From contig NZ_OMPQ01000008.1 of the NCBI RefSeq assembly GCF_900313025.1, positions 289,432 to 353,431 of the forward strand: a stretch of 64,000 bases of DNA, given 5' to 3'. The position numbers and the translations under genes were made by a program. This DNA is from Pseudophaeobacter sp. EL27 (GTDB taxonomy: Bacteria; Pseudomonadota; Alphaproteobacteria; Rhodobacterales; Rhodobacteraceae). The notes under the pieces were generated by a model. That model worked only from the letters and a program-made list of their open reading frames with translations, was not told the origin of the DNA and searched no databases. This document shows positions 13,919 to 49,485 of this stretch, piece by piece; position 1 is the first letter of the stretch; the number at the start of each line of letters is the position of its first letter.

Positions 13919-13961
13919 TAGTTCACCCAACCCGGGACGGGGAGTCCTGAAGGAGGCTTAG

Positions 13962-34320: not shown

Positions 34321-34338
34321 AACTCCGCAAACGGAGTC
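34321..34338 (-). terminator. Attenuator hairpin after the second cobalamin riboswitch
   Basis: On the reverse strand, ACTCCG-TTTG-CGGAGT is followed by TTTGACCCTTTT, 15-30 bases after the B12 box and about 130 bases before cbiK. This looks like the transcriptional expression platform of the riboswitch. Confidence 0.6.
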
Positions 34339-34351
34339 TCAATCCTTGTGT

Positions 34352-34520
34352 CCGGCAGGTCTCCTGACTCGCGGGTCATTGGTCAGCTGGCCTTCCCGGG
34401 AATGTCCCAGTGGCTTGTTCAGCGTCACTCACCGCTCACAGTTGCGGGGGCAGTCACGGATTTGGTCCCTTTTGGGTACGCCTCACCGTGTTCCCTATTG
34501 CTTCCGCTGTGCATTGAAAC
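34352..34520 (-). ncRNA. Cobalamin riboswitch of the cobalt transporter operon
   Basis: Read on the reverse strand, the blocks GACTGCCCCCGCAACTGT, GAGCGG, AGCCACTG, GGGAAGG, and CGCGAGTCAGGAGACCTGCC appear in the correct order, as in the riboswitch at 13742. It precedes cbiK and so represses cobalt uptake when B12 is plentiful. The two riboswitches in the window share the core but differ in peripheral stems and in the downstream platform. Confidence 0.93.
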
Positions 34521-34746
34521 ACGCACGGAACCGATCACTCTGGTTCAATGACAAAACGGGAAATACGAGTCAAGCGCCATGATGGCCTTTTAGTCTGTCA
34601 TGAGGCATGGGCTTTTATCCCAGCAGTTTCCAGATACCGTTCAACAGATCGGCGGGTTGCGCCGGTTTCATCAGCGGATGCCTTCTGGCTGCAATCCCGT
34701 TCCACGCGGGGTGGCTTCGCTTGCGTAGTGGCGCCTTAACAACCAA

Positions 34747-34938: not shown

Positions 34939-35065
34939 TCCATTTGGTCCTATGAGCCGAAGGGCGAGAGCGCCGAGTCGACAACGTGAACCTGATCACA
35001 TCCTGACGCCTGCCAAGCCAAGTCCAGCGTGTCAGTCACGTCTTCGCCCTCATGTTTGTGCAGAG

Positions 35066-35116
35066 TTTTCACTCTCTCAGGACATTGCTGCGCAATACCC
35101 TGCCGGGCAGAGGAGC
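35066..35116 (-). repeat. Micro-insertion of type 2 (copy 1) in the OrfB pseudogene
   Basis: Between SRYI and the expected KLCTTM-type sequence lie 51 bases where intact genes have about 11 (net gain near 40). The core on the reverse strand is CCGGCA, a stem GGGTATTGC/GCAATGTCC with loop GCA, and then TGAGAG. It resembles the reverse complement of the segment at 35543-35583. Confidence 0.55.
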
Positions 35117-35141
35117 TGATGTAGCGACTGTAATCGTCGAG

Positions 35142-35185
35142 GAATGAGACCCTGTCCGCCATCAGTCCGAGGACACTGGACGAAG
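35142..35185 (-). repeat. Micro-insertion of type 1 (copy 1) in the OrfB pseudogene
   Basis: Between GWGWFYLS and LDDYSRYI there are 44 bases where intact IS3 genes carry about six (two codons). The segment includes TGTCCTCGGA, ATGGCGGA and GGTCTCATT, and matches the insert at 48923-48966 in 36 of 44 positions. Confidence 0.7.
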
Positions 35186-35542
35186 GCTGAGATAGAACCA
35201 GCCCCACCCCAGAATCTTGATGTAGGTAAAGTCGGTCTGCCAGAGTTGATTGATGGCAATGGTTTTGTCTTTGAACTCGCTTGCTGCCTTGACCATAAGG
35301 AAGGCCGGGCTAGTGATCAAGTCATGCGCTTTCAGAACCCAATACACCGAAGCTTCTGATACAAAGTCACTTTCTGTATCCATGAACGTCACTGCGAGTT
35401 CACGCGGCGACAGCTCTGTTTCCTTCAATGCCAGCTTCACGACTCTGCGCTGCACCTAGTCACGGTTGAGGCTTCAGACATCCTTTGGCTTGGAAGCTTA
35501 ATCCTCAGGGCCAGCCTCGCCACGCTGCAGATACCGATCATA

Positions 35543-35583
35543 TCCCCTTGACCGGCAGGGCATCAAAGATGCCCGAGAGGGGA
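35543..35583 (+). repeat. Micro-insertion of type 2 (copy 2, inverted) in the OrfB pseudogene
   Basis: Between TTFYR and YDRYLQ there are 41 bases where intact genes have about four. The forward strand reads CCGGCA, then the perfect hairpin GGGCATC-AAA-GATGCCC, then GAGAGG, the same architecture as 35066-35116 in the other orientation. Confidence 0.55.
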
Positions 35584-35769
35584 CGGTAGAATGTGGTGCG
35601 AGGAATGCCGAGTTTGGCCAGTGTCAGGCCTGCTGACATACAGCTTTCTTCAACCGACCTGATGATCTCCAGCTTCTCAAAAGCAGGAGATGGCTAAAGC
35701 GGCTAGGACAGTCTCGGGGTTAACCGGCACCAAAAAACAGCCTGCCCAAATATCAGCCGGTCCCAGATA

Positions 35770-36609
35770 TCAGAGCGCCAACGCACCAATACCACCAAAG
35801 GCCAGCATACAGCCCAGCCATTGTAGCGCCGTCATCCGTTCGCGCAGGATCATCCAAGCCAGCACCACGGTGAGCATCCCAAAAACAGAAGAAGACACAG
35901 CCGCGTACTCTGCATGCGGCATCCCGCCAGCCTTCAGAACATTTTGCAACGCCATGCCATCCAACACCCCCATGGTGACCAACAGGGGGAGTGCGCGCCA
36001 GCCTGGCCACACCAAGTTTCGGGTCAGCGCCATCAAGCACAACAACCCGATCAGTGCCGTAATTCGGGTGGCCAGATTTGCCTGTGGCGCTCCAAACTCT
36101 GCCGCGTATTGACCCAGAGCGAAGGTAGAGGCAAACCCCGCAGCCCCCAGCAAAGACAGGGCAACTGTTGCTTTCCAAGCCCCTGTTACGCCAGTTTCCT
36201 GAGGTCGGCCCGCAGCAGCGCCAACGCCCAGAACAATCACGACAACCGCCAGCCACTGCCAGGATGAGACCTCAACCCCGCGCCAGATCGCAAAACCCAC
36301 CGACAGTACGGGGTAGCTGGCAACAAGTGGTGCCACCAATGCCACGGGCCCACGCCGGAACGCGGCATAAAGCGCCAGATCCGCAATCAAGAAACTCCCC
36401 CCTGCTGCAATGGCATAGCCCAGAGCCTGACTAGGCAGGGCCAGTTCTGCTCCGGACAGGCTGATCCCAGCCAGTTGAAACACAGTTCCCACAGCCAGAA
36501 CCACCATCAAGGAGCCCATAAGCGGCACTGAATCCTTCAGGTAGCGCACCGAAAAATCATGCAAGCCCCAACATAGGGCCGCAATGAGACCCAAGCCCAG
36601 CGCGCTCAA
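35770..36609 (-). CDS. EamA-family (DMT superfamily) transporter
   Basis: This 279-residue protein has ten predicted membrane helices arranged as two EamA repeats. The start is GLGLIAALCWGLHDFSVRYL; the second repeat ends with VLAWMILRERMTALQWLGCM, the typical RE-containing loop before the last helix. DMT exporters remove amino acids, nucleobases or other small metabolites; the cargo is unknown. It is monocistronic between the IS3 debris and the haemoglobin gene. Confidence 0.85.
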   Translation of the reverse strand: MSALGLGLIAALCWGLHDFSVRYLKDSVPLMGSLMVVLAVGTVFQLAGISLSGAELALPSQALGYAIAAGGSFLIADLALYAAFRRGPVALVAPLVASYPVLSVGFAIWRGVEVSSWQWLAVVVIVLGVGAAAGRPQETGVTGAWKATVALSLLGAAGFASTFALGQYAAEFGAPQANLATRITALIGLLCLMALTRNLVWPGWRALPLLVTMGVLDGMALQNVLKAGGMPHAEYAAVSSSVFGMLTVVLAWMILRERMTALQWLGCMLAFGGIGALAL

Positions 36610-36742
36610 GCGGTGTGCTCCTGTGTCAGGGGTATTGCCGTCATTACAACCTCATGAGTGTTGCGAAGAGAACCAACTCCGCACTACTGTTGTTAAATAT
36701 ATATTCCCACCAGGCAACCCAGAAACCCACTAGGATCCATCT

Positions 36743-37171
36743 ATGACTTCGCCCCGAATCTCACCTCTGGATCAAATCGGTGGAGAGGATAAGCTGCGGC
36801 AGGTGGTCGAGCGGTTTTATGACCTGATGGAAACCGATCCCGCCGCTGAAACCTTGCATCGTTTGCATTTTCGCGGCCATGGACTGGACCATACGCGGCA
36901 GGCTCAGTTTGAATTCCTTTGTGGATTTCTTGGTGGTCGCAGTTACTACAAAGAACGCCTTGGTCAAATGAACCTGCGTGAGATCCATGGCCATATTCCC
37001 ATTCGTGAGGCTGATGCCGAACTCTGGTTGACTCTCTTTGACAGCGCACTGGCCGATTGCAACATCGGTGGTCCAGCCCTGAACACTTGGCGGGCGGCTT
37101 TGCGTCGCGCAGCGTTCTCTTTGGTCAACGATGTATCCGATTGGCGACTGGACAGCCCGACAAGGAAATGA
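36743..37171 (+). CDS. Group II truncated haemoglobin
   Basis: This 142-residue protein has the 2/2 globin pattern: the B-helix FYDLME with a Tyr at B10, YYKERLGQMNLREIHGHIPI (E-F region containing the proximal His, as in the group II YxERYGHxxLRxxHxxFxI motif), and AELWLTLFDSAL with Trp at G8. Such globins bind O2 or NO and are usually associated with NO or oxidative-stress protection. It is monocistronic, and convergent with gmaS. A bidirectional use of the downstream hairpin is unlikely because there is no T-run on this strand. Confidence 0.85.
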   Translation: MTSPRISPLDQIGGEDKLRQVVERFYDLMETDPAAETLHRLHFRGHGLDHTRQAQFEFLCGFLGGRSYYKERLGQMNLREIHGHIPIREADAELWLTLFDSALADCNIGGPALNTWRAALRRAAFSLVNDVSDWRLDSPTRK

Positions 37172-37182
37172 TCGCCACATAA

Positions 37183-37214
37183 TGAAAAATGCCCCGACCA
37201 CAGAGGGCCGGAGC
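37183..37214 (-). terminator. Rho-independent terminator of the mgs-gmaS operon
   Basis: On the reverse strand, GCTCCGGCC-CTCTGT-GGTCGGGGC (nine pairs including two G-T wobbles, 37191-37214) is followed by ATTTTTCATT, 25 bases after the gmaS stop. Confidence 0.8.
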
Positions 37215-37238
37215 AGTGAGGGGGTGTAAAATCTCGGA

Positions 37239-38567
37239 CTAGATATCCAGAGTGTTCTCGCGTTCCCAGCGACTGAAGTGGCTGACAAATGAATTCCACT
37301 CCTGGTGCTTCATCTTCAGATAGGCGTTCGAGAACTCTTCGCCCATCATCGCCTTCAGCTCACTGTCTTGATCATACTGGCGCAAAGCATCCAGCATGTT
37401 CAGCGGCAGCTTGGGCGCATCGGTGATCGACTGACCCTCTGCATACATATCAATGTCGTGGCGCTGGCCAGGATCCGCCTTGGAGCGAATGCCCGATAGC
37501 CCTGCGGCAATGATCACCGCTTGCAGCAAATAGGGGTTTGTCGCCCCATCTGGCAGCCGCAATTCAAACCGGCCCGGCCCCGGTACACGCACCATGTGGG
37601 TCCGATTGTTACCGGTCCAGGTCACCGTATTGGGGGCCCAGGTCGCTCCAGAAATCGTCCGTGGCGCGTTGATCCGCTTGTAGCTGTTCACCGTTGGGTT
37701 GGTGATCGCTGCCAGCGCACTGGCGTGCTTCATGATGCCGCCAAGGAAGTGTTTTCCACGCTCACCAAGCCCAACTTCACCGGTCTGGCCTTCGCCGTCC
37801 CCGGCAAAGACATTGACCCGCGAATCCGCACCAGGTGCGTCCCAGACCGAGATATGCGCATGGCAGCCATTGCCGGTTAGCCCCTCGATGGGTTTGGGCA
37901 TAAAGGTGGCGCGGAAACCGTGTTTTTCCGCCACCGATTTGGTCATGAATTTAAAAAAGGAATGTTTGTCGGCGGTCTGCAGGGCATCGTCAAATTCCCA
38001 GTTCATCTCAAACTGGCCATTCGCATCCTCATGATCGTTTTGATACGGCCCCCAACCCAGATCGAGCATGTAGTCGCAAATCTCGCGTACGACCTCGTAA
38101 CGACGCATCACCGCCTGTTGGTCATAACAGGGTTTCACTGCAGTATCGAAAGGGTCACTGATCTCGGTGCCCTCAGGCGTCAGCAAAAAGAACTCAGCCT
38201 CGATGCCGGTCTTTACATGCATACCCTCGGCGGCGGCCTCATCAATCAAGCGACGCAACACATTGCGCGGCGCCTGGGCCACATCCTGACCTTCCATCAC
38301 GCAATTGCCAGCCACCCAGGCCACTTCGGGCTTCCAGGGCAGTTGGATCACCGATGAAGGATCCGGCACCGCCAGCATATCGGGATGCGCCGGGGTCATA
38401 TCCAACCAGGTGGCAAAACCGGCAAAGCCCGCACCATCTTCCTGCATGCCTGCGATGGCCTGTGCCGGCACCAGCTTGGCTCTTTGTCCACCGAACAGAT
38501 CGGTGAACGATATCATGAAATACTTGACGCCTTTTTCTTTGGCGAAAGCAGCCAGATCTACCGTCAT
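37239..38567 (-). CDS. gmaS: Gamma-glutamylmethylamide synthetase (glutamine synthetase family)
   Basis: This 442-residue glutamine-synthetase fold enzyme has TGIEAEFFLLTP (metal-binding Glu pair), QFEMNWEFDDALQTADKHSF and FMPKPIEGLTGNGCHAHISV (ATP and metal site) and NSYKRINAPRTISGATWAPN. Length and sequence fit GmaS/type III-like GlnT rather than ammonia-assimilating GlnA. It ligates methylamine to glutamate with ATP, the first step of the N-methylglutamate pathway. Position downstream of mgsABC and opposite dmmDABC supports this strongly. An intercistronic terminator at 38600-38634 suggests additional, separate expression. Confidence 0.88.
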   Translation of the reverse strand: MTVDLAAFAKEKGVKYFMISFTDLFGGQRAKLVPAQAIAGMQEDGAGFAGFATWLDMTPAHPDMLAVPDPSSVIQLPWKPEVAWVAGNCVMEGQDVAQAPRNVLRRLIDEAAAEGMHVKTGIEAEFFLLTPEGTEISDPFDTAVKPCYDQQAVMRRYEVVREICDYMLDLGWGPYQNDHEDANGQFEMNWEFDDALQTADKHSFFKFMTKSVAEKHGFRATFMPKPIEGLTGNGCHAHISVWDAPGADSRVNVFAGDGEGQTGEVGLGERGKHFLGGIMKHASALAAITNPTVNSYKRINAPRTISGATWAPNTVTWTGNNRTHMVRVPGPGRFELRLPDGATNPYLLQAVIIAAGLSGIRSKADPGQRHDIDMYAEGQSITDAPKLPLNMLDALRQYDQDSELKAMMGEEFSNAYLKMKHQEWNSFVSHFSRWERENTLDI

Positions 38568-38599
38568 GGTCTGATTTCCCTTCCCTGTTGTCTTGTTTT

Positions 38600-38634
38600 C
38601 AAAAGAAAAGGCGCAGCCCGTGTTGTGCTGCGCC
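38600..38634 (-). terminator. Terminator-like hairpin between mgsC and gmaS
   Basis: On the reverse strand GGCGCAGC (38627-38634) pairs with GCTGCGCC (38610-38617) and is followed by TTTTCTTTT. It lies 14 bases after the mgsC stop and about 30 bases before the gmaS start, so only part of the transcripts should enter gmaS. Confidence 0.75.
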
Positions 38635-38648
38635 TGTCATCATTTCAC

Positions 38649-39986
38649 TCAGAAACCACCTTTTCCGGGGTACCATTCGGTGCCCGCCAAAGGCACCTGC
38701 GCCATGGCAGCGGCTTCCATTGTCAGCGCACAAAGATCCTCGGGTTCAAGGTTGTGCAGATGGTTGTGACCGCAGGCACGGGCAATGGTCTGGGCCTCTA
38801 GCGTCATCACGTTTAGATAGTTGCGCAAGCGTCGCCCGGCCTCGACCGGATCAAGCCGGGCCGCCAACTCCGGATCCTGGGTGGTAATGCCCGCTGGGTC
38901 CAGCCCTTCGTGCCAATCATCATAGGCTCCAGTTGTGGTGCCCAGTTTCTGATACTCGGACTCCCATTTGGGATCATTGTCACCAATCGCCACCATGGCC
39001 GCAGTACCGATCGAGACTGCGTCGGCTCCCAGTGCCAGGGCCTTGGCCACATCCGCGCCGGTGCGAATACCACCCGAGATCACCAGCTGTACCTTACGGT
39101 GCATACCCAGGTCCTGCAGCGCTTTCACCGCCGGGCGAATACAGGCAAGCGTCGGCTGGCCCACATGTTCGATGAACACGTCCTGTGTCGCAGCCGTGCC
39201 GCCCTGCATCCCATCCAGAACCACAACATCGGCCCCAGCCTTGATCGCCAGCGTGGTATCAAAATAGGGCCGCGCACCTGCGATTTTTACATAGATCGGC
39301 ACGCGGCCATTGGTAATCTCGCGCAGTTCCAGAATTTTGATCTCCAGATCATCCGGGCCGGTCCAATCCGGGTGCCGACAAGAGGAGCGCTGATCAATGC
39401 CTTTTGGCAGGGTACGCATTTCGGCCACCCGGTCCGAGATCTTCTGCCCCAGAAGCATACCGCCGCCACCGGGTTTGGCGCCCTGCCCCACCACGATCTC
39501 AATTGCATCGGCCTTGCGCAGATCATTGGGGTTCATACCATAGCGCGAAGGCAGATATTGATAGACCAACTGTTTGGAGTGGCCGCGCTCTTCCGGGGTC
39601 ATGCCGCCATCACCCGTGGTCGTCGAGGTGCCTGCCAATGAAGCGCCACGTCCCAGCGCTTCCTTGGCCGGGCCGGACAGAGCGCCAAAGCTCATCCCAG
39701 CGATGGTGATCGGGATGTCCAGTTTGATCGGGTTCTTGGCAAAGCGGGTGCCCAATAGCACGCTGGTGTCGCATTTCTCGCGATACCCTTCTAATGGGTA
39801 ACGCGACACCGAAGCGCCAAGGAACAATAGATCATCAAAATGCGGTACCTTACGTTTGGCACCGCCGCCGCGAATGTCATAAATTCCGGTTGCCGCAGCC
39901 CGACGGATCTCGGCATTGATCTCGTTGGTGAATGTCGCCGACTGGATCGGCATCGTGCGAGGAATGTTGTGAGTATCGTCTGTCAT
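38649..39986 (-). CDS. mgsC: N-methylglutamate synthase FMN/Fe-S subunit (glutamate synthase-like, GlxD/MgsC)
   Basis: From ATG 39986, 11 bases after mgsB (SD GAGGGA), the product has 445 residues. It corresponds to the FMN-binding barrel of glutamate synthase: ITIAGMSFGALSGPAKEALG, GEGG-like TGDGGMTPEE, GQGAKPGGGGMLLGQKIS, VVLDGMQGGTAAT, and the C-terminal IGTAAMVAIGD. An upstream in-frame start at 40085 would overlap mgsB. With MgsA and MgsB it makes N-methylglutamate from gamma-glutamylmethylamide. Confidence 0.88.
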   Translation of the reverse strand: MTDDTHNIPRTMPIQSATFTNEINAEIRRAAATGIYDIRGGGAKRKVPHFDDLLFLGASVSRYPLEGYREKCDTSVLLGTRFAKNPIKLDIPITIAGMSFGALSGPAKEALGRGASLAGTSTTTGDGGMTPEERGHSKQLVYQYLPSRYGMNPNDLRKADAIEIVVGQGAKPGGGGMLLGQKISDRVAEMRTLPKGIDQRSSCRHPDWTGPDDLEIKILELREITNGRVPIYVKIAGARPYFDTTLAIKAGADVVVLDGMQGGTAATQDVFIEHVGQPTLACIRPAVKALQDLGMHRKVQLVISGGIRTGADVAKALALGADAVSIGTAAMVAIGDNDPKWESEYQKLGTTTGAYDDWHEGLDPAGITTQDPELAARLDPVEAGRRLRNYLNVMTLEAQTIARACGHNHLHNLEPEDLCALTMEAAAMAQVPLAGTEWYPGKGGF

Positions 39987-39996
39987 GTCCATTCCC

Positions 39997-40674
39997 TCAG
40001 TAGGCGTTGTCGATGTTGAAATTATAAAGCCCACGGGCTGAACCGTAGCGTTTGAACTCTTCTGGTTTGGCGTCACAGCCACCACGGATCAGCAGCTCAG
40101 ACAGCAATTCCAGATGTTCGGGTCGCATTTCCTTTTCAACGCAATCCGCTCCCAAGGACTTGACCGAGCCGCGTACAAACAGTCGTGCTTCATAGAGGGA
40201 ATCCCCCAGTGCGTCGCCCGCGTCACCGCAGACCACAAGATTGCCGGACTGCGCCATAAAGGCGGACATATGGCCGATGTTGCCATGCACAATGATGTCG
40301 ATACCCTTCATGGAGATACCACAACGTGAGGAGGCATTGCCCTTGATCACCAAGGTGCCGCCATGGCCAGTGGCCCCGGCATATTGCGAAGCATCACCTT
40401 CGACTACGACCATGCCGCTCATCATGTTTTCTGCAGCGCCAGGGCCGACAGAGCCATGCACATGCACGGTCGCCTGCTGGTTCATTCCGGCGCAATAATA
40501 GCCGGTAGAGCCTTTGACGTTGACCTCAATCGGTGCGTCCAACCCCACGGCAATCGCGTGACTGCCCTTTGGGTTTATCACTTCCCAATGGGTCTGATTG
40601 GTGTTTTCTGCCTGGCTGTGCAGGGTCGAGTTGAGGGCGCGCAGGCCCTCAGCTTCCAGATCAAATACCTGCAT
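39997..40674 (-). CDS. mgsB: N-methylglutamate synthase GXGXG subunit (GlxC/MgsB)
   Basis: Starting at ATG 40674, one base after the mgsA stop, the 225-residue product consists of the right-handed beta-helix found at the C-terminus of glutamate synthase. Repeated turns such as GSTGYYCAGMNQQATVHVHG and GDASQYAGATGHGGTLVIKG show the GxGxG pattern. It has no catalytic residues and serves as structural core of the complex. An earlier in-frame start at 40713 overlaps mgsA and is rejected. Confidence 0.87.
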   Translation of the reverse strand: MQVFDLEAEGLRALNSTLHSQAENTNQTHWEVINPKGSHAIAVGLDAPIEVNVKGSTGYYCAGMNQQATVHVHGSVGPGAAENMMSGMVVVEGDASQYAGATGHGGTLVIKGNASSRCGISMKGIDIIVHGNIGHMSAFMAQSGNLVVCGDAGDALGDSLYEARLFVRGSVKSLGADCVEKEMRPEHLELLSELLIRGGCDAKPEEFKRYGSARGLYNFNIDNAY

Positions 40675-40675
40675 C

Positions 40676-41605
40676 TCAGGCTGCCTTCTCGTGAGTGGTC
40701 GGAGCGCTGTCATGGCTCCAGAAATAGACCGTTGCAGGCTCAGGCTCCCAAACCCGGGCCTCTTCGATCCCCGGCAGATTCACCAGAGCACGGTATTCCG
40801 AACCAAAGGCAACGTATTGATCGGTTTCCGCCATCACCGCAGGTTTGCAAGCAATCGGATCACGCACCACGCCAAAGCCATCCTTGGTGCCGACCACAAA
40901 GGTGAAGAACCCGTCCAGATCATCCAGGCTGGCCTCAAGCGCCTGGCCCAGGCTGGCGCCTTCGCGCATTTTCCAGGTCAGATAGGCCGCACCGACTTCG
41001 GTGTCGTTTTCAGTCTGGATATGCACCCCTTCGCGGCGCAGCTTGCGACGCAACGAGTTGTGGTTCGACAAAGAGCCATTGTGCACCAGGCACTGGTCGG
41101 ATCCAGTATTAAACGGATGCGCGCCCATGGTGGTTACCGCTGATTCAGTTGCCATCCGGGTGTGGCCAATGCCGTGGGTGCCCGTCATGCTGCTCAGCGC
41201 AAAACGTTCCGCAACAGAACGTGGCAGACCGACTTCTTTGTAGATCTCAAGGCTTTCACCCTGACTCATGACCCTCACAGTGGGCCGGAGCTCAGCCAAG
41301 GCTGCGCGTGCCGCATCCAATTCAGCTGCGGGAACATCCAGTACAGCATGTGTATCTACCACCGAGATGGCAACCTCGCCCTGCAAGGCTGCAGTCAAAT
41401 CGCTTGCCAGCGTGGCAAAATCGGCCTCAGGCGTTGCAGATTGAACTGTCAGCTTGACTGTTCCGTCTTCGCCCGAACCGTAGATGGCAATACCGGCACT
41501 GTCTGGTCCCCGGTCTGTCATGGTGATCAACATATCCGTCAGCATCGCGCCCAGCTGTGGCGCCAGTGACTGGTCTTTGAGGAATAATCCTACAATCCCG
41601 CACAT
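40676..41605 (-). CDS. mgsA: N-methylglutamate synthase amidotransferase subunit (class II, GlxB/MgsA)
   Basis: This 309-residue protein begins MCGIVGLFLKD, with Cys2 becoming the N-terminal nucleophile of Ntn amidotransferases. GHTRMATESAVTTMGAHPF, CLVHNGSLSNHNSLRRKL and NDTEVGAAYL are the glutamine-site loops. The expected role is release of methylamine from gamma-glutamylmethylamide for transfer to 2-oxoglutarate on MgsC. It is first of mgsABC; the 146-base gap upstream contains a terminator hairpin and probably its own promoter. Confidence 0.87.
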   Translation of the reverse strand: MCGIVGLFLKDQSLAPQLGAMLTDMLITMTDRGPDSAGIAIYGSGEDGTVKLTVQSATPEADFATLASDLTAALQGEVAISVVDTHAVLDVPAAELDAARAALAELRPTVRVMSQGESLEIYKEVGLPRSVAERFALSSMTGTHGIGHTRMATESAVTTMGAHPFNTGSDQCLVHNGSLSNHNSLRRKLRREGVHIQTENDTEVGAAYLTWKMREGASLGQALEASLDDLDGFFTFVVGTKDGFGVVRDPIACKPAVMAETDQYVAFGSEYRALVNLPGIEEARVWEPEPATVYFWSHDSAPTTHEKAA

Positions 41606-41704
41606 GGATAATGGCCCTCCGTCAGGTTGTTTCGTTGAGTCGAGGCTAGCACCAACGCAAAGCCGTTACAATAATTTTAGGAAAGTATTTTTCCCCATAA
41701 GAAA

Positions 41705-41729
41705 GGCGCGACTACTGAGTAGCCGCGCC
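41705..41729 (-). terminator. Hairpin between the small membrane protein gene and mgsA
   Basis: GGCGCG-a-CTAC-tga-GTAG-c-CGCGCC forms a near-perfect 11-pair stem. On the reverse strand it is followed by TTTCTTAT, consistent with termination of the amt transcript. Confidence 0.65.
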
Positions 41730-41751
41730 CCACTATCGCTGATGTTTTAGC

Positions 41752-41967
41752 TCAGTATCGTTCGAGCTGAGCGTGAACCTTATCCGGATCTCCGGTACGT
41801 TTGGCCTCCTCCAGATGTTTGCCTTCGCGGACAAATTGTATCCGGTGCCAGATGATCCAAAAGGCAATCCCGACCAGCGCCATCAGAAACTCTGAGCCCT
41901 GCAAGGGATAGATCGGGCCGACTTCCGCCAGATCCACCGCCCAGCTTTCAATTCCTATCGTTGACAT
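41752..41967 (-). CDS. Small single-span membrane protein following amt
   Basis: This 71-residue protein has one predicted helix (EFLMALVGIAFWIIWHRIQF, residues 26-45) followed by a charged cytoplasmic tail ending KVHAQLERY. It lies 12 bases after amt on the same strand and before mgsA, so it is co-transcribed with the ammonium transporter. I do not recognise a family. A small accessory subunit for Amt is plausible from position alone. Confidence 0.75.
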   Translation of the reverse strand: MSTIGIESWAVDLAEVGPIYPLQGSEFLMALVGIAFWIIWHRIQFVREGKHLEEAKRTGDPDKVHAQLERY

Positions 41968-41979
41968 GTCGCTGTCTCC

Positions 41980-43353
41980 TCACTCTGCTGGGGTTACTTT
42001 GGCGGCCAGATGGGCCTTATCTGCTTCGATGATTTCGGCCTTTGCGTCCTCGTAAGCATGGTGTTCCGCGTAATCGAGACCCATCAGTTCAACCTCTTCT
42101 GGGATCCGCAGCACACCTGCGCGCGCTTGTAGTTTGGCTACGCACCAGGCCGGGAGGAACCCTAAACCGAAGAACATGATCACCGCACCCAGGGTCTGGC
42201 CAAGTGGGTTTACGGCGGCATAGCCCTCAAACGGAGACGATGGTGCGCCCCAAAGGACAAACCCCGAGATGATCAGGCCAACAACACCAGCATATCCATG
42301 CACCGCAACAGCCCCGACTGCATCGTCCAGCTTGAATCGGCGTTCGACCCAGTAGTGCAGGTTGTAGACGATCACGACCCCGACAGCTGCGACCAGCATC
42401 GCCTGAATCGGGTGATACAGATCGTTGCCCGCAGAGGCGGTAATGACACCAGCCAATCCACCTGAGAAGGTCCAGAAAGCATCGCCTTTGGAGACCACAT
42501 AGGCCGCCATCAATCCACCAGACAGCGACATCAGGAAGTTAAATGTGATGGCCGAAAGCGAGGTTGGCGCCAGATAGATATTGGTCGCGGTCCATGTTGT
42601 GCCGGTAATCTGGCCACCAATGGCTTCGGGAGAAATGATCGGCACGTTACAGGCCGCATAAAAGCCCCAGAAACCAGTGTAGATCAAAAAGATCCCGATG
42701 GTCAGCATCCAGGGGTTGTGCGGAGGAATGTCGCGCGGTGTGCCGTCTTTGGCGAATTTGCCAATCCGTGGCCCCAGTACCATGATCACACCCAGCGCAT
42801 AGCCACCAGCAATCGCGTGGATCACCCCGGATGCATAGGCGTCGTGATAGCCCAAATATTTCACCATCCAGCCTGCATAGTGCCAGCCCCAGGCTGCATC
42901 AATGATCCACCAGACCGAACCGATCAGCACCGCATGCACCCAGAGCGCTGAGGAGCGGATACGCTCGATCACCGAACCAGACACGATCGACGCCGCGGTC
43001 CAAGAGAACAACAGGAAGGCCGCCCAGAACACTCCGGTGATTCGGTCACTCAGGTTTGGCCCCATGGTTTCAGACCATGGCAGATTCGCGTTACCCATTT
43101 CGTGGTTCAAGCCTCCAAAGAATGGAAAATCTGGGAAGGCCCAGTAGATCCACCACCCGAAGAAGTAGAAGGTCACGGTAACCAGAGGGATAACCATGAC
43201 ATTTTTCATCAGCGTATGCATGTGGTTGCGTCGCCGACTGGCGCCAACTTCATACATGCAAAATCCAACGTGAATTAGGAACATAAAGACAATTGTCACC
43301 CAGTAGTAAAACTCGGTGAACACTGTCGTAAGTGCATTTAGATTACCGTCCAC
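41980..43353 (-). CDS. amt: Ammonium transporter (Amt family)
   Basis: This 457-residue, 11-helix protein keeps the twin pore histidines (SGVIHAIAGG and VAVHGYAGVVG) and the Asp eight residues before the first His (DAYASGVIH), as in AmtB. It has an extended C-terminal tail rich in charged residues (EVELMGLDYAEHHAYEDA). Its place between the mgs genes and divergent dmm genes indicates a role in recovering ammonium, or in methylammonium movement, during growth on methylated amines. No glnK gene is adjacent. Confidence 0.92.
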   Translation of the reverse strand: MDGNLNALTTVFTEFYYWVTIVFMFLIHVGFCMYEVGASRRRNHMHTLMKNVMVIPLVTVTFYFFGWWIYWAFPDFPFFGGLNHEMGNANLPWSETMGPNLSDRITGVFWAAFLLFSWTAASIVSGSVIERIRSSALWVHAVLIGSVWWIIDAAWGWHYAGWMVKYLGYHDAYASGVIHAIAGGYALGVIMVLGPRIGKFAKDGTPRDIPPHNPWMLTIGIFLIYTGFWGFYAACNVPIISPEAIGGQITGTTWTATNIYLAPTSLSAITFNFLMSLSGGLMAAYVVSKGDAFWTFSGGLAGVITASAGNDLYHPIQAMLVAAVGVVIVYNLHYWVERRFKLDDAVGAVAVHGYAGVVGLIISGFVLWGAPSSPFEGYAAVNPLGQTLGAVIMFFGLGFLPAWCVAKLQARAGVLRIPEEVELMGLDYAEHHAYEDAKAEIIEADKAHLAAKVTPAE

Positions 43354-43614
43354 GGCATCCTCTCCCCACTAGTTTCGTCTATTATTTTATCTCTCTGGTC
43401 ACGCTTCAAACTTTCCCTTCAGGAAACAGTTTGCACTATGGGGATACGCGCAAAGGGCTTCTGTCAACATTTTTGTGAGCCATTATCCGTGCCGCATTTG
43501 CACAATGAAGCGGCGGAAATCTGTCCAAATCCTCCGAAAACGTGGGCGCAAACCTCAACCAAATATGCACTTTATCGCAAATGCTACCCTGCAGAAATTG
43601 CCGACTCAGCCTCC

Positions 43615-43637
43615 AATTTTTCCTGTTAGGAAAAATT
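43615..43637. promoter_or_regulatory. Palindrome in the amt-dmmD divergent promoter region
   Basis: AATTTTTCCT-GTT-AGGAAAAATT is a perfect 10-bp inverted repeat about 80 bases before dmmD. A looser TTTCC-CTTCA-GGAAA copy lies at about 43412-43425 near amt. It is a candidate operator, possibly for the XRE-cupin regulator at 47928. The assignment is an inference. Confidence 0.5.
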
Positions 43638-43719
43638 ACTGCACAAGAGTATTGATTTTACCGTCAATCTCGGCCTCAATATCGACAACAAGCAAAAAGA
43701 CATCAGGGAGACGTGAGCT

Positions 43720-44865
43720 ATGGCCATTCTGTGGAGAAGGTCCGCCTTGGCGCAGCGCCATGCGGAAATTGGCGGCGAGCTGGAAGACTGGAATGGTATG
43801 GGAACCGCTTGGTTCTACGATAACACGCCGGAACGCGCCAAAGCCGACTACGAGGCCATTCGCACCAAGGCAGGATTGATGGATGTCTCCGGCCTAAAAA
43901 AGGTTCACTTGGTCGGTGAACATGCGGCGCAGGTGATTGATCGGGTCACCACCCGCAATGTCGACAAGATCATGCCAGGGCGCTCGACCTATGCCTCGAT
44001 CCTGAATGAGCAGGGAAAATTCATCGATGACTGCATCATTTACCGGTTGTCAGTGAATACTTGGATGGTTGTGCACGGCACGGGTGCTGGCATGGAGCAG
44101 CTCTCGGCTGTGGCAGCATCAAAAAACTGCGCTGTAATCTTTGATGATGACCTGCACGACATGTCCCTGCAGGGGCCGGTTGCCGTGGATTTTCTGGCGG
44201 ATCATGTGCCGGGGATTCGCGATCTGGCCTATTTTGGCATCCTGCAGACCAAACTTTTTGGCAGACCCGTGATGATCTCGCGTACCGGCTATACAGGGGA
44301 GCGCGGTTACGAGATCTTCTGTCAGGCCCAAGACGCGGTGCACCTGTGGGACAGCATTCTGGCGGGCGGCAAAGACATGGGCATTCGCCCGGTTCAGTTC
44401 TCGACCCTCGATCTGCTGCGCACCGAAAGCTACCTGTTGTTTTACCCCGGCGACAACTCGGAAACCTACCCCTTTGATGATGGTCCCTGCGGCGACACTC
44501 TGTGGGAATTGGGGCTAGAGTTCACCGTTTCGCCCGGCAAAACCGGGTTTATCGGGGCGGAAAACCACTATGCCGCGAAAGGTAAGGAACGGTTCAAGAT
44601 CTATGGCGTCGTGCTAGAAGGCACCACACCTGCAGATGAAGGCGCGGCCCTTTTGCAGAACGGCGAAAAGGTCGGCGTCGTGACCTTTGGCATGTATTCC
44701 GAGATCAACAACCACAACGTCGGCATTGCCCGTATGCCCGTTGCCTGCGCCACACCCGGCACCGAGCTGACGGTGCGCAATGGCGATGGCACTGAGATCG
44801 CAGCCAAGGCCGCCGAAATGCCGTTTTACGATCAGGATAAATCCATCCGCACCGCAAAAGGCTAA
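43720..44865 (+). CDS. dmmD: Folate-binding GcvT-like protein of dimethylamine oxidation (DmmD)
   Basis: This 381-residue aminomethyltransferase-fold protein has LMDVSGLKKVHLVGEHAAQV, IDRVTTRNV, MISRTGYTGERGYEIF (folate-binding region) and a C-terminal barrel (FKIYGVVLEGTTPADEG). GcvT-like proteins take up C1 units on tetrahydrofolate, here probably the formaldehyde released by N-demethylation. The order dmmD-dmmA-dmmB-dmmC matches the dimethylamine monooxygenase operon described in Ruegeria pomeroyi. It diverges from amt with a 366-base promoter region between. Confidence 0.85.
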   Translation: MAILWRRSALAQRHAEIGGELEDWNGMGTAWFYDNTPERAKADYEAIRTKAGLMDVSGLKKVHLVGEHAAQVIDRVTTRNVDKIMPGRSTYASILNEQGKFIDDCIIYRLSVNTWMVVHGTGAGMEQLSAVAASKNCAVIFDDDLHDMSLQGPVAVDFLADHVPGIRDLAYFGILQTKLFGRPVMISRTGYTGERGYEIFCQAQDAVHLWDSILAGGKDMGIRPVQFSTLDLLRTESYLLFYPGDNSETYPFDDGPCGDTLWELGLEFTVSPGKTGFIGAENHYAAKGKERFKIYGVVLEGTTPADEGAALLQNGEKVGVVTFGMYSEINNHNVGIARMPVACATPGTELTVRNGDGTEIAAKAAEMPFYDQDKSIRTAKG

Positions 44866-44934
44866 CCCAGCTAGCAAAGGCGCGCGGGTTTGCCCATGCG
44901 CCTTTGCCCATGCGAGGCCCCACACGAGGACACA

Positions 44935-45531
44935 ATGTCAAAGTTTGAATTCCCCCCCTCGATCCTAAGCCGCCCCATCTGGGGGCAGCTTGAGCCCCGC
45001 CCCGGCACGTATCACCTGATGATCGCTGATGCCGAAGGTGCCGAAGCAATCCTGGATGTCGCCACACCTGAATTGATGGCTCAATGCCACATCATCCACA
45101 TCCCCAAGGGCACCGATTTTGCCGCAAGGCTGAGCAAACTCAATCCAGCGCAACTCTATGAAGGCCCCAGCTATGAAGCGGCACTGCCACGCATTCGGCG
45201 TGTCTTGGGTGATGGCCACATGGGGCTGCAGATCTATCTTGCGGGTACCGAGGGGCTGATGGGGCAAGCCATGGCGGAAGCCATGCGGGCCGGAATTCCG
45301 CACAGTGCAATCCAGACTGAACATCGCGGCTCCACCGGCCGCCGGATGCAATGTGTGCATTGCAAAGGCATCACGGAGGATGTGGAAACAGACCCCTTTG
45401 TCTGCAGCCATTGCGGTTTGAACCTGTTTGTGCGCGATCACTATTCCCGCCGCATCGCCGCCTATCAAGCCGTCTGCGTCGACGCCGAAGACCACGGCAA
45501 CATTCCTGAACAAAAGGGGATCTACCAATGA
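44935..45531 (+). CDS. dmmA: Dimethylamine monooxygenase subunit DmmA
   Basis: Starting at ATG 44935 (GAGGA nine bases upstream), the product has 198 residues. Near the C-terminus it carries a zinc-ribbon-like site: MQCVHCKGITEDV and FVCSHCGLNLFVRDHYSRR (two CxxC pairs). The N-terminal half (RPGTYHLMIADAEGAEAILD) resembles a degenerate reductase-like domain. It is named from operon context and from the conserved DmmA-type organisation. It overlaps dmmB by four bases (ATGA). Confidence 0.82.
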   Translation: MSKFEFPPSILSRPIWGQLEPRPGTYHLMIADAEGAEAILDVATPELMAQCHIIHIPKGTDFAARLSKLNPAQLYEGPSYEAALPRIRRVLGDGHMGLQIYLAGTEGLMGQAMAEAMRAGIPHSAIQTEHRGSTGRRMQCVHCKGITEDVETDPFVCSHCGLNLFVRDHYSRRIAAYQAVCVDAEDHGNIPEQKGIYQ

Positions 45532-46490
45532 GCGGTGCAGAAAAACTCCGCGTCCGGGTCAGCGAGATCACCCCCATCAACGCCCTGGTCACCCGCTTTC
45601 GGTTTGAACGCTGTGATGACAAGGAACTACCAACCTTCTCTGGCGGCGCCCACACCGTGGTCGAGATGCAGGATGATGGCGTCACCCGGCTCAATCCCTA
45701 TTCGCTGATGTCGGACCCGTATGATCAGAGTTCATATACGATCTCGGTCAGGCGTGATGACACAGGGCGAGGAGGATCGCTGTTCATGCACCAACGGGTC
45801 AAGGCTGGTGATGAGATGACCATCAGCTATCCGGTCAATCTGTTCTCGCTGGATCTACGCGCCCGCAAACATCTGTTCATTGCAGGCGGTATTGGTATCA
45901 CGCCTTTCCTGGCGCAAATCCATCAACTCGAGCGCTTCAATTCTCAGTGGGAACTGCACTACGCCTGCCGCGGTAAAAGCCTGGGCTCTTATGCGGATGA
46001 GCTGACCTCCCGCCACCCAAACCAGACCCATATCTATTTTGACGACCAATCCCAAACCATTGATCTGCCGCATCTGTTAGAGGGGCAGCCTCTGGGTACC
46101 CATGTCTATGTCTGCGGCCCCAAAGGAATGATCGACTGGGTGCGCAACACGGCATCAGCCCAAGGCTGGCCACAGGACAATATCCACTACGAAGAGTTCG
46201 TCTCGCCGCAACCGGGGAAACCCTTTGAAGTAAAACTGTCCGTGTCGAACAAGACCATCCAGGTCGGCGAACATGAAAGCCTGCTGGAGGCAATGGAACG
46301 CGAAGGCGTTGACGCACCCTACCTGTGCCGTGGCGGCGCCTGCGGCCAATGCGAAACAGCAGTGATTGGCTACGACGGAAAATTCATCCACCGCGACCAT
46401 TGGCTAGAGCCGCAAGAGCACAAAAGCGGACAGAAAATAATGCCCTGCGTGTCCCGATTTGAGGGCAAGACCCTCGTGCTGGACCGCTGA
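45528..46490 (+). CDS. dmmB: Dimethylamine monooxygenase reductase subunit DmmB (FMN/FAD and 2Fe-2S)
   Basis: This 320-residue phthalate-dioxygenase-reductase-type protein has a flavin domain (RLNPYSLMSDPYDQSSYTIS), an NAD domain (HLFIAGGIGITPFLAQIHQL, then YVCGPKGMIDWV) and a C-terminal plant-type ferredoxin with cysteines in CRGGACGQC and a fourth in MPCVSRF. It passes electrons from NAD(P)H to the haem subunit DmmC. Intact in length and motifs. Confidence 0.9.
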   Translation: MSGAEKLRVRVSEITPINALVTRFRFERCDDKELPTFSGGAHTVVEMQDDGVTRLNPYSLMSDPYDQSSYTISVRRDDTGRGGSLFMHQRVKAGDEMTISYPVNLFSLDLRARKHLFIAGGIGITPFLAQIHQLERFNSQWELHYACRGKSLGSYADELTSRHPNQTHIYFDDQSQTIDLPHLLEGQPLGTHVYVCGPKGMIDWVRNTASAQGWPQDNIHYEEFVSPQPGKPFEVKLSVSNKTIQVGEHESLLEAMEREGVDAPYLCRGGACGQCETAVIGYDGKFIHRDHWLEPQEHKSGQKIMPCVSRFEGKTLVLDR

Positions 46491-46503
46491 GAGGAGGCAG
46501 AAG

Positions 46504-47571
46504 ATGACCATTCAATTCAACGACGAAAGCTTTCGCGACGACTATAGCTTTCACAATTCTGAGCGTGCACTAAAGCGCTTTCCTTTCCCCTTCCACGAAG
46601 ACAGTTACATGTACTCGGTCAATATGGAGCAACACCGGGGAGGACCCGCTGATTCAGTCTATGAGATGCGTTTCGACGTTGACGAACACTATGTGTCCGA
46701 GATGAAAGACCGCGCGATTGTGCTGGATCAGGATCCGCTGCGCTGCCAGTCCCTGCCCCATATGACGCTTGCCGGCTGGGATCTGCTGGAATTGATTATG
46801 GTGTCCAAATCCGAAGACTACCCGGATTTGTTTGAGCTTCACCGCGATGGCGATCACTGGCGCTGGATCAACAGGCCCTTGGGAATCGATGACAGCTTTA
46901 CCTTTCTGGATGAAACCACCCTGCCCTATGGGCCGATGGAATATATCACCCGGCAGGCGCAGGGCGATTTTGCGGTTCTGGATCAACGCGATGACATGTT
47001 GTGGATGGATGCCGGCATGGTCACCACGCAGGCCGACTGGAGCCTGGACTTCGACATTGGCATGAACTTCTTTGAGTGGCACGCGCCAGTTCCCAAAGCC
47101 CATGAAATGGGCATCTTTGTTCGCGCCCTCAAATTTCTGCTGAACATTCAGCAAGGTGCACCCGCGCGACGGTTAAATTGGACCATGACAGTCAATCCCC
47201 TGCTGGATACCAGCCCGGAAAACTATCACAAATGGGGGATCCAGAAGACCACTCTGACGCCGGAAAACATCGGCCGCAAACAGCACCTCCGCGTCGAGCT
47301 GCAGACCTTTTACAGGCTGCCGCGCTCAAATGCGCTGGTGTTCCCGATCCGCTGCTATCTCTGCGCCTTTGAGGATCTTACCGCAGTGCCAAAATGGGGC
47401 CGCCGCCTGCACCGGGTGGTGCGGGACCTACCGGTTGAACTGGCCACCTACAAAGGCTTTATCGACAACCGCCCCTTGATGCTGGACTACCTCAGTCAGT
47501 TTGACGACGGGCTGCCCACCTCGTCGGGGATCTGGCCAGACCGCGAAAGCGAACCGCCACTGCAGAAATGA
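46504..47571 (+). CDS. dmmC: Dimethylamine monooxygenase haem-dependent subunit DmmC (DUF3445/HODM family)
   Basis: From ATG 46504 (GAGGAGG upstream), the product has 355 residues. KRFPFPFHEDSYMYSVNMEQ at the start and the later FFEWHAPVPKAHEMGIFVRA and RLNWTMTVNPLLDTSPENYH identify the haem-dependent oxidative N-demethylase family. LFELHRDGDHWRWINRPLGI contains candidate haem-ligand or substrate residues. It completes dmmDABC, converting dimethylamine to methylamine and formaldehyde. An in-frame start at 46459 overlaps dmmB and is not preferred. Confidence 0.87.
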   Translation: MTIQFNDESFRDDYSFHNSERALKRFPFPFHEDSYMYSVNMEQHRGGPADSVYEMRFDVDEHYVSEMKDRAIVLDQDPLRCQSLPHMTLAGWDLLELIMVSKSEDYPDLFELHRDGDHWRWINRPLGIDDSFTFLDETTLPYGPMEYITRQAQGDFAVLDQRDDMLWMDAGMVTTQADWSLDFDIGMNFFEWHAPVPKAHEMGIFVRALKFLLNIQQGAPARRLNWTMTVNPLLDTSPENYHKWGIQKTTLTPENIGRKQHLRVELQTFYRLPRSNALVFPIRCYLCAFEDLTAVPKWGRRLHRVVRDLPVELATYKGFIDNRPLMLDYLSQFDDGLPTSSGIWPDRESEPPLQK

Positions 47572-47576
47572 TGCGA

Positions 47577-47610
47577 CAAAAAAGACCCCGCTTCGCGCTG
47601 AGTTTTTTTC
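47577..47610. terminator. Probable degenerate terminator after dmmC
   Basis: AAAAAAGACCCCGC-TTC-GCGCTGAGTTTTTTT lies between convergent dmmC and the broken membrane gene. The A and T tracts and the central CGC/GCG pair fit a bidirectional terminator, but the middle of the stem is mismatched. Confidence 0.45.
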
Positions 47611-47889
47611 TTACATACGGGCAAGTAAGACCCAAGAATTCGCTACAACAACTGTCGATCCAACCATGAGGCAAGCCACACCAACAATTCGCAATAGCAC
47701 TCTGTTGAACAGGTTTGACCGGCAGTAATATGAGGGCCACCGATTCTTGATCCGTTGATAGTATGGCCGACGCTCCAGCACCCAGTCTTCACGTGCGGCC
47801 CATCGCGTTGGGTCTGTCATGACATAAAAGATCAGACCTAAAACAGCAGCCACTCAGCCAAGCACGATTGGGAAAACGATATCCAGCAT
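47611..47889 (-). pseudogene. Small membrane protein gene with an in-frame TGA
   Basis: Reading from ATG 47889 gives MLDIVFPIVLG, then TGA (47854-47856), then VAAVLGLIFYVMTDPTRWAA and further to a last hydrophobic segment (VLLRIVGVACLMVGSTVVVA). The first transmembrane helix is continuous across the stop, so a Trp or similar codon was probably lost. Restart at the GTG directly after the stop lacks a ribosome binding site. No family is recognised. A sequencing error is the alternative. Confidence 0.55.
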
Positions 47890-47927
47890 GGGAAGAGGCC
47901 TCAGAAAACTCGTGTCACTCCGAAACC

Positions 47928-48578
47928 TCAGGTATTCTGCGGATAACTGATCACTGACAGGTAGCGAGCTGGCAATTGTACCAGTTTCTCCGGACCATGC
48001 GGTGCATCCGCATCAAAGAACAGGGTGTCACCAGGTTTCAAAGGGTAGACCTCATCTCCATGGCGGTAATCCACTTGCCCCTCGAGCATATAGATCGTCT
48101 CAATTCCAGCGTGCTGAAAGGTCGGGAAGACATCGGATTCCTCGCTCAACGTGATCAAGTAGGGTTCGACAATAACCCCCGAAGCATTGGCGCCGATATG
48201 GCCCAGAAGATTATACTGATGGTTGGCACGGGTACCTTCGCGTTCCAGCTCCACGCCTTCCCCAGATTTGGTGTGCACCGCCTCACGACGCTCCTCAAAA
48301 CGACGGAAAAAACTGGTCATAGGCACCGACAGGGCATTCGCAAGTGTTTGCAAGGTGGTCAATGAGGGCGAGGTATTGCCGTTCTCGATCTTGGACAACA
48401 TGCCGATAGACAGGCCGGTAATTTGCGCCAAATCAGCCACGGTGATTTCCTTTTGCCGCCTAAACGCTCGAACTTCGCGGCCAATCGCCACCTCAAGCAC
48501 CTTCTCTCGCTCTCCGTTGCGCAGGCTATGAGGATCTTGTTTTAGTAGAGAACGTCCCTCCGGATTTTGCTTGCCCAA
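47928..48578 (-). CDS. XRE-type regulator with C-terminal cupin domain
   Basis: This 216-residue protein joins a helix-turn-helix (ITVADLAQITGLSIGMLSKI with ENGNTSPSLTTLQTLANALS, residues 45-84) to a cupin sensor (ETIYMLEGQVDYRHGDEVYP, LKPGDTLFFDADAPHGPEKL, about 140-198). Members of this PuuR-like class sense amines, amino acids or related metabolites. It is convergent with dmmC and is the only regulator in the methylamine region, so it is the best candidate controller of dmm/amt/mgs. The binding site is not proven. Confidence 0.85.
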   Translation of the reverse strand: MGKQNPEGRSLLKQDPHSLRNGEREKVLEVAIGREVRAFRRQKEITVADLAQITGLSIGMLSKIENGNTSPSLTTLQTLANALSVPMTSFFRRFEERREAVHTKSGEGVELEREGTRANHQYNLLGHIGANASGVIVEPYLITLSEESDVFPTFQHAGIETIYMLEGQVDYRHGDEVYPLKPGDTLFFDADAPHGPEKLVQLPARYLSVISYPQNT

Positions 48579-48817
48579 TTTGCATCCTTTCTGCCCATTA
48601 CTTGCGCACCTTAGACTGTCTGAAACGCTCTGTGTACACAGATGATGCCAATAGAAAGTATATCAAAGCCAATAACTGGTGGGAAAATCCTTTGCTATGA
48701 AACAAAATGAATCTGGGATACCACACAGGTTGAGCAATAGAGGTTTTCTGGAGAATGGATGCCCCATTTTTCCAGGTGGGTTTGTCCCATAACCCTGGTG
48801 GCAAGTATGGGCTTTGT

Positions 48818-49485
48818 GGCTTTGTAGCGCAAATCGCGAGAGGGCCAGACTTCCCCTTACCCCGGACGGACTTATCCTACGGGCTCTGTGACAGGTATGC
48901 CGATTGCCGTGTAGCGGTTGAGCAATGAGACCTTTTCCGCCATTGGTCCGAGGACAATGGTCGAATGATGCGGATTTGGATCTCCGCAACCTGCGTTTCT
49001 AAGTCCCTTGCCATGAGCGATTGACCGAGAAGTTTCACACAATGCATCTTTGTTTCGACGCGGCTTCGGCGGTGGTACCCGGTCAATTTTCGCCACAGCG
49101 CCCGGCCCAGGTACTGTGATGCGCGCACAGCTTCGTTTCTGGCGATGGCACCAGCGCTCGTCGACCCCAGGGCTTGGCGTTTTTGCGCGGTGGAATGATG
49201 GCGTCAGCACCACGTACGGCAATCGCCTCGTGACATTTGCGGGTGTTAAAGGCCCCGTCCGCCGTGACTGATCCGAGCTTCTGGTCGGACGGGATTTGAT
49301 CCAGCTGGTCTGGCAACATGGGCGCATCAAACCAGATTGCCAGCGATCCACGACGCTTCAATGCCGTGTTGTAGGTCGTCCAGTTCGTGGTCTTGTACTC
49401 CGCAGGTGTCCAACTGCTCATGGCCTCCAGCTATCATGCTGGATTTACGTCGTAAATCCTCTCAACCCATTTGCTCAACAAAGCC
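48818..49485 (-). mobile_element. IS5-family insertion sequence remnant with internally deleted, frameshifted transposase
   Basis: Imperfect terminal inverted repeats (GGCTTTGTAGCGCAAAT at 48818 and, inverted, GGCTTTGTTGAGCAAAT ending at 49485) enclose a decayed transposase. Recognisable parts are YKTTNWTTYNTALKRRGSLA, LPDQLDQIPSDQKLGSVTAD, IIPPRKNAKPW, YLGRALWRKLTGYHRRSRVE and YTAIGIPVTEPVG. WFD is joined directly to the APxLPDQLDQIP region, so about 110 residues with part of the DDE site are deleted. Frameshifts follow, and a 44-base insert (48923-48966) interrupts the last part. No target duplication is clear. Confidence 0.85.
48923..48966 (-). repeat. Micro-insertion of type 1 (copy 2) in the IS5 transposase remnant
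   Basis: Between QVAEIQIRI and LNRYTAIG there are 44 bases where intact IS5 genes have about six. The segment contains the hairpin CCATTGTCC-TC-GGAcCAATGG and ends GGTCTCATT. It matches 35142-35185 at 36 of 44 positions despite lying in an unrelated transposase gene. Confidence 0.7.

Follow-up and report, generated by a model that had tools for sequence, protein, structure and literature searches.

Two 44-base inserts in transposase pseudogenes of Pseudophaeobacter sp. EL27 as probable copies of a miniature mobile element of Rhodobacteraceae

How does one short sequence come to lie in two unrelated transposase genes? The question is raised by a 64,000-nucleotide stretch of Pseudophaeobacter sp. 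EL27 (contig NZ_OMPQ01000008.1, positions 289,432 to 353,431; hereafter the window), in which an IS3-type and an IS5-type transposase pseudogene, each the remnant of an insertion sequence (IS), carry similar 44-base inserts. Our analysis suggests that the two 44-mers belong to a miniature mobile element of Rhodobacteraceae, whose insertion amounts to the net replacement of a short target and most of whose hosts are mobile DNA. We assign this reading a probability of roughly 70%.

Both 44-mers were found on the minus strand where the preliminary description of this DNA had placed them (Table 1), and a recount reproduced the reported agreement of the two equally long inserts at 36 of 44 positions, without gaps. 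A 33-base pattern spanning both matched 2 places in the window with at most 3 mismatches and none in 100 dinucleotide shuffles; the core of copy 1 corresponds to G000:C8:324574-324606. Intact relatives had been expected to hold about six bases at the insert sites, and the relatives of both hosts hold 5–7. At the IS3 site, relatives read CTCAGCACGATCCTGGAC or CTCAGCACGGTTCTAGAC, where the window reads CTCAGC, the 44 bases and CTCGAC. At the IS5 site, relatives from elsewhere read CGCATTGCCGTGCTCAA, and the window reads CGCATC, the 44 bases and CTCAAC. A further IS5 relative from EL27 itself (L270, 82% identity where compared) reads CGCATCGCTATCCTGAAC at the site of copy 2, with CGCTATC in place of 45 bases of the window copy. 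Alignment to relatives gave a net gain of 38 bases in both hosts, in line with the earlier estimate of about 38 bp.

Both window copies lie in dead IS remnants, with the frame shifted. Copy 2 changes the frame of the last ~17 codons of the IS5-type pseudogene, which additionally lacks an internal stretch present in its sister copies. The inverted repeat that had been claimed for both inserts can be read in copy 2, but the arms of copy 1 are decayed. The predicted fold of the IS3 copy was no better than those of shuffled sequences (147 of 200 as good), and that of the IS5 copy was barely better (35 of 200).

The 44-mers are not confined to the window. Two patterns together found 8 copies in the EL27 genome, namely six in IS5-type copies, the window IS3 copy and one at C8:17542. 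With at most 3 mismatches, a longer pattern matched 22 of 394 genomes of the bacterial family, EL27 included, and a shorter pattern matched 69 of 390 genomes of the order, in 45 of 139 genera. In the class sample, only 2 of 385 genomes matched, EL27 and one further member of the same family; none of the 380 genomes outside the family matched the element pattern. A reversed-pattern control gave no match in the EL27, family, order or class searches. In genome_contigs, 12 contigs held 13 stretches with exact matches; the contig titles name Rhodobacteraceae or roseobacter genera. Similar, though not exact, matches were obtained in 39 plasmid records at E ≤10, with 15 covering at least 80%; the organisms named there also fall in the Rhodobacteraceae/roseobacter group. 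Eight viral contigs carried the element, and phage records gave 7 weak partial matches, none covering 80%. Rfam covariance models had no match at E ≤1 between positions 34800 and 49600 of the window, and a literature search of titles and opening abstract lines, with subscription papers outside its coverage, found no description of such an element in this bacterial group.

In total, 145 distinct insertion contexts were collected, including L141 and L053, which are possibly chance matches. They cluster to 63 sites, many of which recur across several genomes. Copies are inherited within IS lineages that have been amplified, so there were fewer moves than copies, and 63 is nearer than 145 to the number of independent places.

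Comparison with empty sites indicates what an insertion changes. An empty relative was available among the fetched loci for 94 of the 145 insertions and for none of the other 51; 45 of the 94 comparisons were viewed in printed detail. The net gain was 37 bases in 32 comparisons, 38 in 29, 36 in 24, 35 in 6, and 34, 39 and 41 in one each; it was ~36 in the perfect form and 37–38 in forms with an extra base. At the cleanest sites, to judge from these alignments, ~6 bp after a C appear to have been lost and 42 gained. In genome G397, the filled copy in a phage-type terminase gene reads CAGTC, 42 bases and CTCGCC where empty relatives (about 90% identical) read CAGTCGGGCGCCTCGCC, a net gain of 36. 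Beside a malic-enzyme gene of genome G616, 6 of the 13 other aligned loci of the genus hold the hairpin GAGGGGCGCTGCCCCTC or nearly so, and in the filled copy 42 bases replace CGCTGC in the loop of this native hairpin (closest relative 84% identical; net 36). Most printed comparisons showed lost bases together with element-like flanking repeats, and the direct repeats at the ends were unlike the native target at most sites. Thus, the net gain proposed in the preliminary description stands, but the event resembles a replacement of ~6 bp by 42–44 bp and not a plain insertion.

The element is 42–45 bp long and has terminal inverted repeats. Its common form reads CRYTCG-N-CCATTGTCC-TCGGACCAATGGC-GGACAATGG-N'-CTCRYY (or GGACAAGG-N'), in which N and N' are complementary; between the ends stand GNCCATTGTCC (or GCCATTGTCC), the loop TCGGACCAATGGC and then GGACAATGGN'C or GGACAAGGN'C. 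This corresponds to a hairpin whose stem of about 10 bp closes a 13-base loop, with a 3–4 base direct repeat on either side. The end logos were built from 48 of the 63 sites, selected because they have TCG at the left end and CTC at the right, so that only positions outside these triplets are informative; they gave the ends CRYTCG and CTCRYY and a C at position −3 in 47 of the 48 sites. The closing pair, formed by the base after the left TCG and the base before the right CTC, was Watson–Crick in 95 of 104 copies (A-T 47, C-G 40, G-C 7, T-A 1), related copies being counted singly. When the partners were shuffled 2000 times, the mean was 40 and the maximum 55, figures that do not amount to a probability. 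Rarer forms have the inner stem altered on both sides (TTGTTC/GAACAA and TTGTGC/GCACAA). The in-frame form folds into a single predicted hairpin of −10.2 kcal/mol, and 5 of 200 shuffles were as good.

One IS481-type site was filled in seven copies, six from four genomes (G188, G589, three copies in G414, and G474) and one from a plasmid. Its joined flanks were matched fully or partly in 45 of 254 genomes of the order, filled and empty copies pooled. The tree of this site has 29 rows, in which two filled copies are present twice and from which rows of 330 bases or fewer were dropped, including the filled L097 and L099. On this tree, the filled label requires 5 changes, at least 2 of them forced by supported branches, and a single origin was found in 0% of 200 bootstrap trees. 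In its simplest reading, the tree suggests that the site was probably filled more than once; conversion between IS481 copies, or loss, could also have scattered the filled copies. Differences among the filled copies at codon positions 1, 2 and 3 numbered 141, 144 and 505 downstream of the element, indicating that this frame is under constraint. The upstream counts were 338, 348 and 612, a less clear signal because two copies are rearranged there. Stops occurred in 3 of 14 half-frames.

The element had been proposed to target, or to survive in, transposase genes. Its hosts are indeed mainly such genes, but they also include phage-type genes and one intergenic hairpin. Of 49 site representatives whose translated flanks were judged by eye, 44 looked like transposases, 1 was unclear and 4 were not; the types are IS3, IS5, IS21, IS256, IS66, IS110/IS3 and IS481. 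Flank reading frames were scanned for 142 of the 145 contexts, the other 3 having no usable frame. Among the 25 of 29 Pfam families listed, where one flank may match several, transposase families were the most frequent: HTH_21 (30), rve (26), rve_3 (16), HTH_Tnp_1 (14), rve_2 (9), DDE_Tnp_1 (6), Transposase_mut (4) and Mu-transpos_C_2 (4). Among the 25 of 52 PHROGs families listed, one transposase family matched 66 of the 142 flanks. The non-transposase matches among the families listed were terminase (3 in Pfam, 4 in PHROGs), DUF6900 (2) and malic enzyme (1, the intergenic case), as well as single matches to Acyl-CoA_dh_M, QueC, NMO, Asn_synthase and others, which are perhaps neighbours or chance.

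The reading frame is mostly shifted in transposase hosts. In full-length terminase genes compared with natives at two sites, the element lies in frame with a net gain of 36, putting 14 residues in the place of 2. At the site between the ATPase and nuclease domains (L175, L209 and L211; domain positions partly from Pfam and partly by eye), TGE-AP-DWQ becomes TGE-GEPWSAIGPRTMAS-DWQ, and at the site right after the FLDE motif (L210), FLDE-VD-AYPAS becomes FLDE-AEPLSAIGPRTMAK-AYPAS. The peptide predicted to be added in a filled full-length terminase is GEPLSAIGPRTMAS. As judged by the frame alone, the element is also read through in DUF6900 genes (L101 and L102) and in the 735-residue frame of L205, by eye a probable protease–capsid fusion; L206 and L207 contain the same stretch. 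The codon phase of the ends was skewed in two of four end and orientation sets (18 of 26 and 9 of 13 sites) and less so in the remaining two (8 of 14; 12, 11 and 4 of 27), which could arise from a target preference in coding DNA. In L039 and L125, the element lies at the junction of an IS remnant with unrelated sequence, where it may mark rearrangement points.

The IS3 pseudogene holds more than its earlier account had listed: a second palindromic insert, unrelated in sequence, was missing from that account (Table 1). This second family has a form near CTGCCCGGCAGGGTATTGCGCAGCAATGTCCCGAGAGGGG. Two IS5 copies of the EL27 genome hold a related 44-base palindrome where two others read AAAG, and it looks from such comparisons as if family 2 insertion also replaces a few bases, about 4. 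Within the fetched loci, 98 places match the 11-base start of family 2 with at most 1 mismatch, many of them by chance, and by eye ~40 go on to read as the family; L001 and L005 are among the loci that carry the family. A strict pattern found 1 place in the EL27 genome, and a second pattern matched 2 of 15 genomes, EL27 not among these. By comparison with L001, L004 and L005, the sequence separating two family 2 inserts is missing from the IS5 copies L006 and L007 of the EL27 genome, as if by recombination between the family 2 repeats. In the IS3 pseudogene, the two inserts (35073-35185) add 38 and 40 bases, together 78 bases or 26 codons, which is probably a coincidence. A Pontibrevibacter plasmid (L144) carries both a family 1 element and a nearby family 2 type insert in one IS3 orfA remnant. 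On a Paracoccus pantotrophus plasmid (L157, near 604), a similar-looking palindrome, GTTGTCCATTGGTCCTCGGACCAATGG...CAATGGACAAC, lies between two metabolic genes and is possibly a divergent subfamily. Elsewhere in the window, cobalamin riboswitches (Rfam RF00174) lie at 13716-13930 (+) and 34337-34550 (−).

Table 1. Positions in the window of the palindromic inserts and their host remnants
Feature	Position	Strand	Basis
Element copy 1 (family 1), in IS3-type orfB pseudogene; arms decayed	35142..35185	-	44 bases vs about 6 in relatives
Element copy 2 (family 1), near 3' end of IS5-type transposase pseudogene	48923..48966	-	Relatives; empty L270 in the same genome
Left arm of copy 2, GACCATTGTCC	48952..48962	-	Read off the sequence; pairing at family level
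Right arm of copy 2, GGAAAAGGTC (usual family form GGACAAGGTC)	48929..48938	-	Read off the sequence
Family 2 insert, unrelated palindrome in the same IS3 pseudogene	35073..35116	-	44 bases vs 4 in L013
IS3-type orfB remnant, upstream part, open until a stop within copy 1	35162..35455	-	Open reading frame list; homology and phase
IS3-type remnant, downstream part in another frame (LDDYSRY...), broken by the family 2 insert	34950..35141	-	Open reading frame list; comparison with L013
IS5-type transposase remnant, host of copy 2	48872..49421	-	Open reading frame list; alignment of sister copies

The preliminary description inferred that a small hairpin element had itself moved. Unrelated sites, many genomes, covarying ends and empty relatives all support this inference; the 44 bases are absent from the relatives, and the 44-mers are widespread elsewhere, the reverse of the two results that it had named as contrary. 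The element has no room for an enzyme and would be moved in trans, by a recombinase acting on the folded hairpin. This recombinase would swap the element for a short target segment. The element would then accumulate in transposons and phages, presumably since both tolerate it and bring it from one genome to another, and it looks like a genetic parasite within other genetic parasites. A further step, which we hold to be possible rather than probable, is that it represents a distinct class of ultra-small elements that fold to a hairpin, are exchanged for a nearly fixed ~6 bp, use reusable sites in mobile-element genes and comprise at least two unrelated sequence families.

Several observations weigh against the view of a mobile hairpin exchanged for a short target. 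Neither a moving enzyme nor a transposition intermediate was found for the element. Of the 6 outer-stem pairs TTGTCC/GGACAA, only 2 show double changes that preserve pairing (1 and 5 cases), and every pair has 5–18 one-sided breaks; the left arm pairs with the middle arm about equally well. The idea of hairpin-shaped native targets is rejected, since 63 compared targets were not palindromic above background (4.11 against 3.95). General selection for in-frame insertion is likewise rejected, since 29 of the 97 insertions for which both flanking frames were confident are in frame, about the chance level. In the IS481 tree, 59 of 500 label shuffles required as few changes, and the drawing leaves 12 of the 24 inner branches open. 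Where printed, the empty relatives are about 67–90% identical, so that borders are good to only 1–2 bp. The flanking repeat is already present in some natives (CTCG in L139 and L127 against L021; CATT in L051), and these three sites could be read as target duplications with 2–3 bases lost. Finally, the scan for a larger relative described below covered one end form only.

The last points bear on the alternative that survives best, an ordinary miniature inverted-repeat transposable element (MITE): an internally deleted larger IS with the same ends, moved by the transposase of that IS, with a short target duplication blurred by divergence. Terminal inverted repeats, many copies and the lack of coding room fit a MITE, as do the CTCG or CATT repeats at both ends. 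However, no longer element with the left end YTCGNCCATTGTCC was found in 15 genomes by a pattern that misses the in-frame form; its 18 places were 17 full short elements (15 of the 16 places displayed, plus 2 already known copies) and 1 unrelated sequence, and 7 of the 15 genomes had no such place. In the 94 comparisons, fewer bases were gained than the element contains, and the flanking repeats of most sites do not resemble the native target. We consider an ordinary MITE unlikely.

Passive spread would dispense with movement of the element altogether, as one or a few ancient insertions would have been multiplied as phages spread and as IS copies transposed and underwent gene conversion with one another. 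It is true that six IS5 copies of the EL27 genome, the window copy among them, are filled at one common site and hence count as one event, that in genome G490 four IS3 copies are filled and none of full length is empty, and that many sites recur in several genomes. However, homologous recombination can hardly connect 63 sites that lie in unrelated IS types and phage-type genes, and the copy beside the malic-enzyme gene is chromosomal, at a place that is empty in congeners. The filled IS481 copies are scattered among empty ones, though conversion could also produce this pattern. Passive spread alone seems improbable to us.

Marginally less probable still is that the insert acts in place at the RNA level, as a translational bypass, frameshift signal or tiny intron, and that the host transposases stay active. 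The IS lineages bearing the element have multiplied, the downstream IS481 frame is constrained and the closing pair covaries, in keeping with this idea. However, net gains of 36, 37 and 38 each occur often, and there is no one hop by which every frame would be restored. The filled IS481 copies are not one lineage, so that the constraint can predate recent insertions; moreover, the element also lies in a non-coding hairpin, and the window hosts are broken otherwise too. Chance similarity or normal IS sequence is rejected by the 0 of 100 shuffles, the lack of reversed-pattern matches in the searched genomes and the relatives without the insert.

If the two 44-mers are copies of a mobile element, as we favor, its 42–45 bp would make it a candidate for one of the smallest mobile DNA elements of bacteria. 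Finding the mover could reveal a new recombination route, since transposition usually leaves a duplicated target and not a short one that has been replaced. Where the element lies in frame in full-length phage terminase genes, it suggests a mobile peptide that is tolerated, and such copies would give a direct view of how proteins absorb insertions of this kind. The element may also account for some broken transposase annotations in this group.

Among known systems, the Rickettsia palindromic elements (RPEs) offer several parallels. A review describes RPEs as about 150 bp long and as falling into ten families, with 44 integrations in R. conorii, nearly half in genes, and with each encoding a conserved peptide (PMC10969869). 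Like RPEs, the present element is palindromic, alphaproteobacterial and present in many copies within protein genes, and in some hosts it lies in frame with a recurring peptide. It is in frame at the two terminase sites compared with natives, the frame is open through it in two further genes, and 29 of 97 insertions are in frame overall. It differs in its length of 42–45 bp, in its hosts, which are mainly mobile-element genes with the frame usually broken in transposases, and in a net gain smaller than the element. In the class sample, moreover, its matches are confined to one bacterial family; the comparison with RPEs is one of description.

With MITEs, the element shares short length, a non-coding nature, inverted repeats and presumed movement in trans. 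Prokaryotic MITEs are normally intergenic, according to the same review (PMC10969869). In contrast, the present element lies mainly within genes, a scan for one end form found no parent transposon, and the element appears to leave no clean target duplication at most sites. REP sequences are short hairpin repeats of bacterial genomes and are extragenic. Their name is expanded as repetitive extragenic palindromes in that review (PMC10969869). The element differs from them in being mainly intragenic (by eye, 44 of the 49 site representatives lie in transposase genes). Mobile palindromes are also known from fungi, as the mitochondrial GC clusters and byps. These belong to other genomes, and their likeness to the element, as mobile palindromes of similar size, is one of description and not of sequence.

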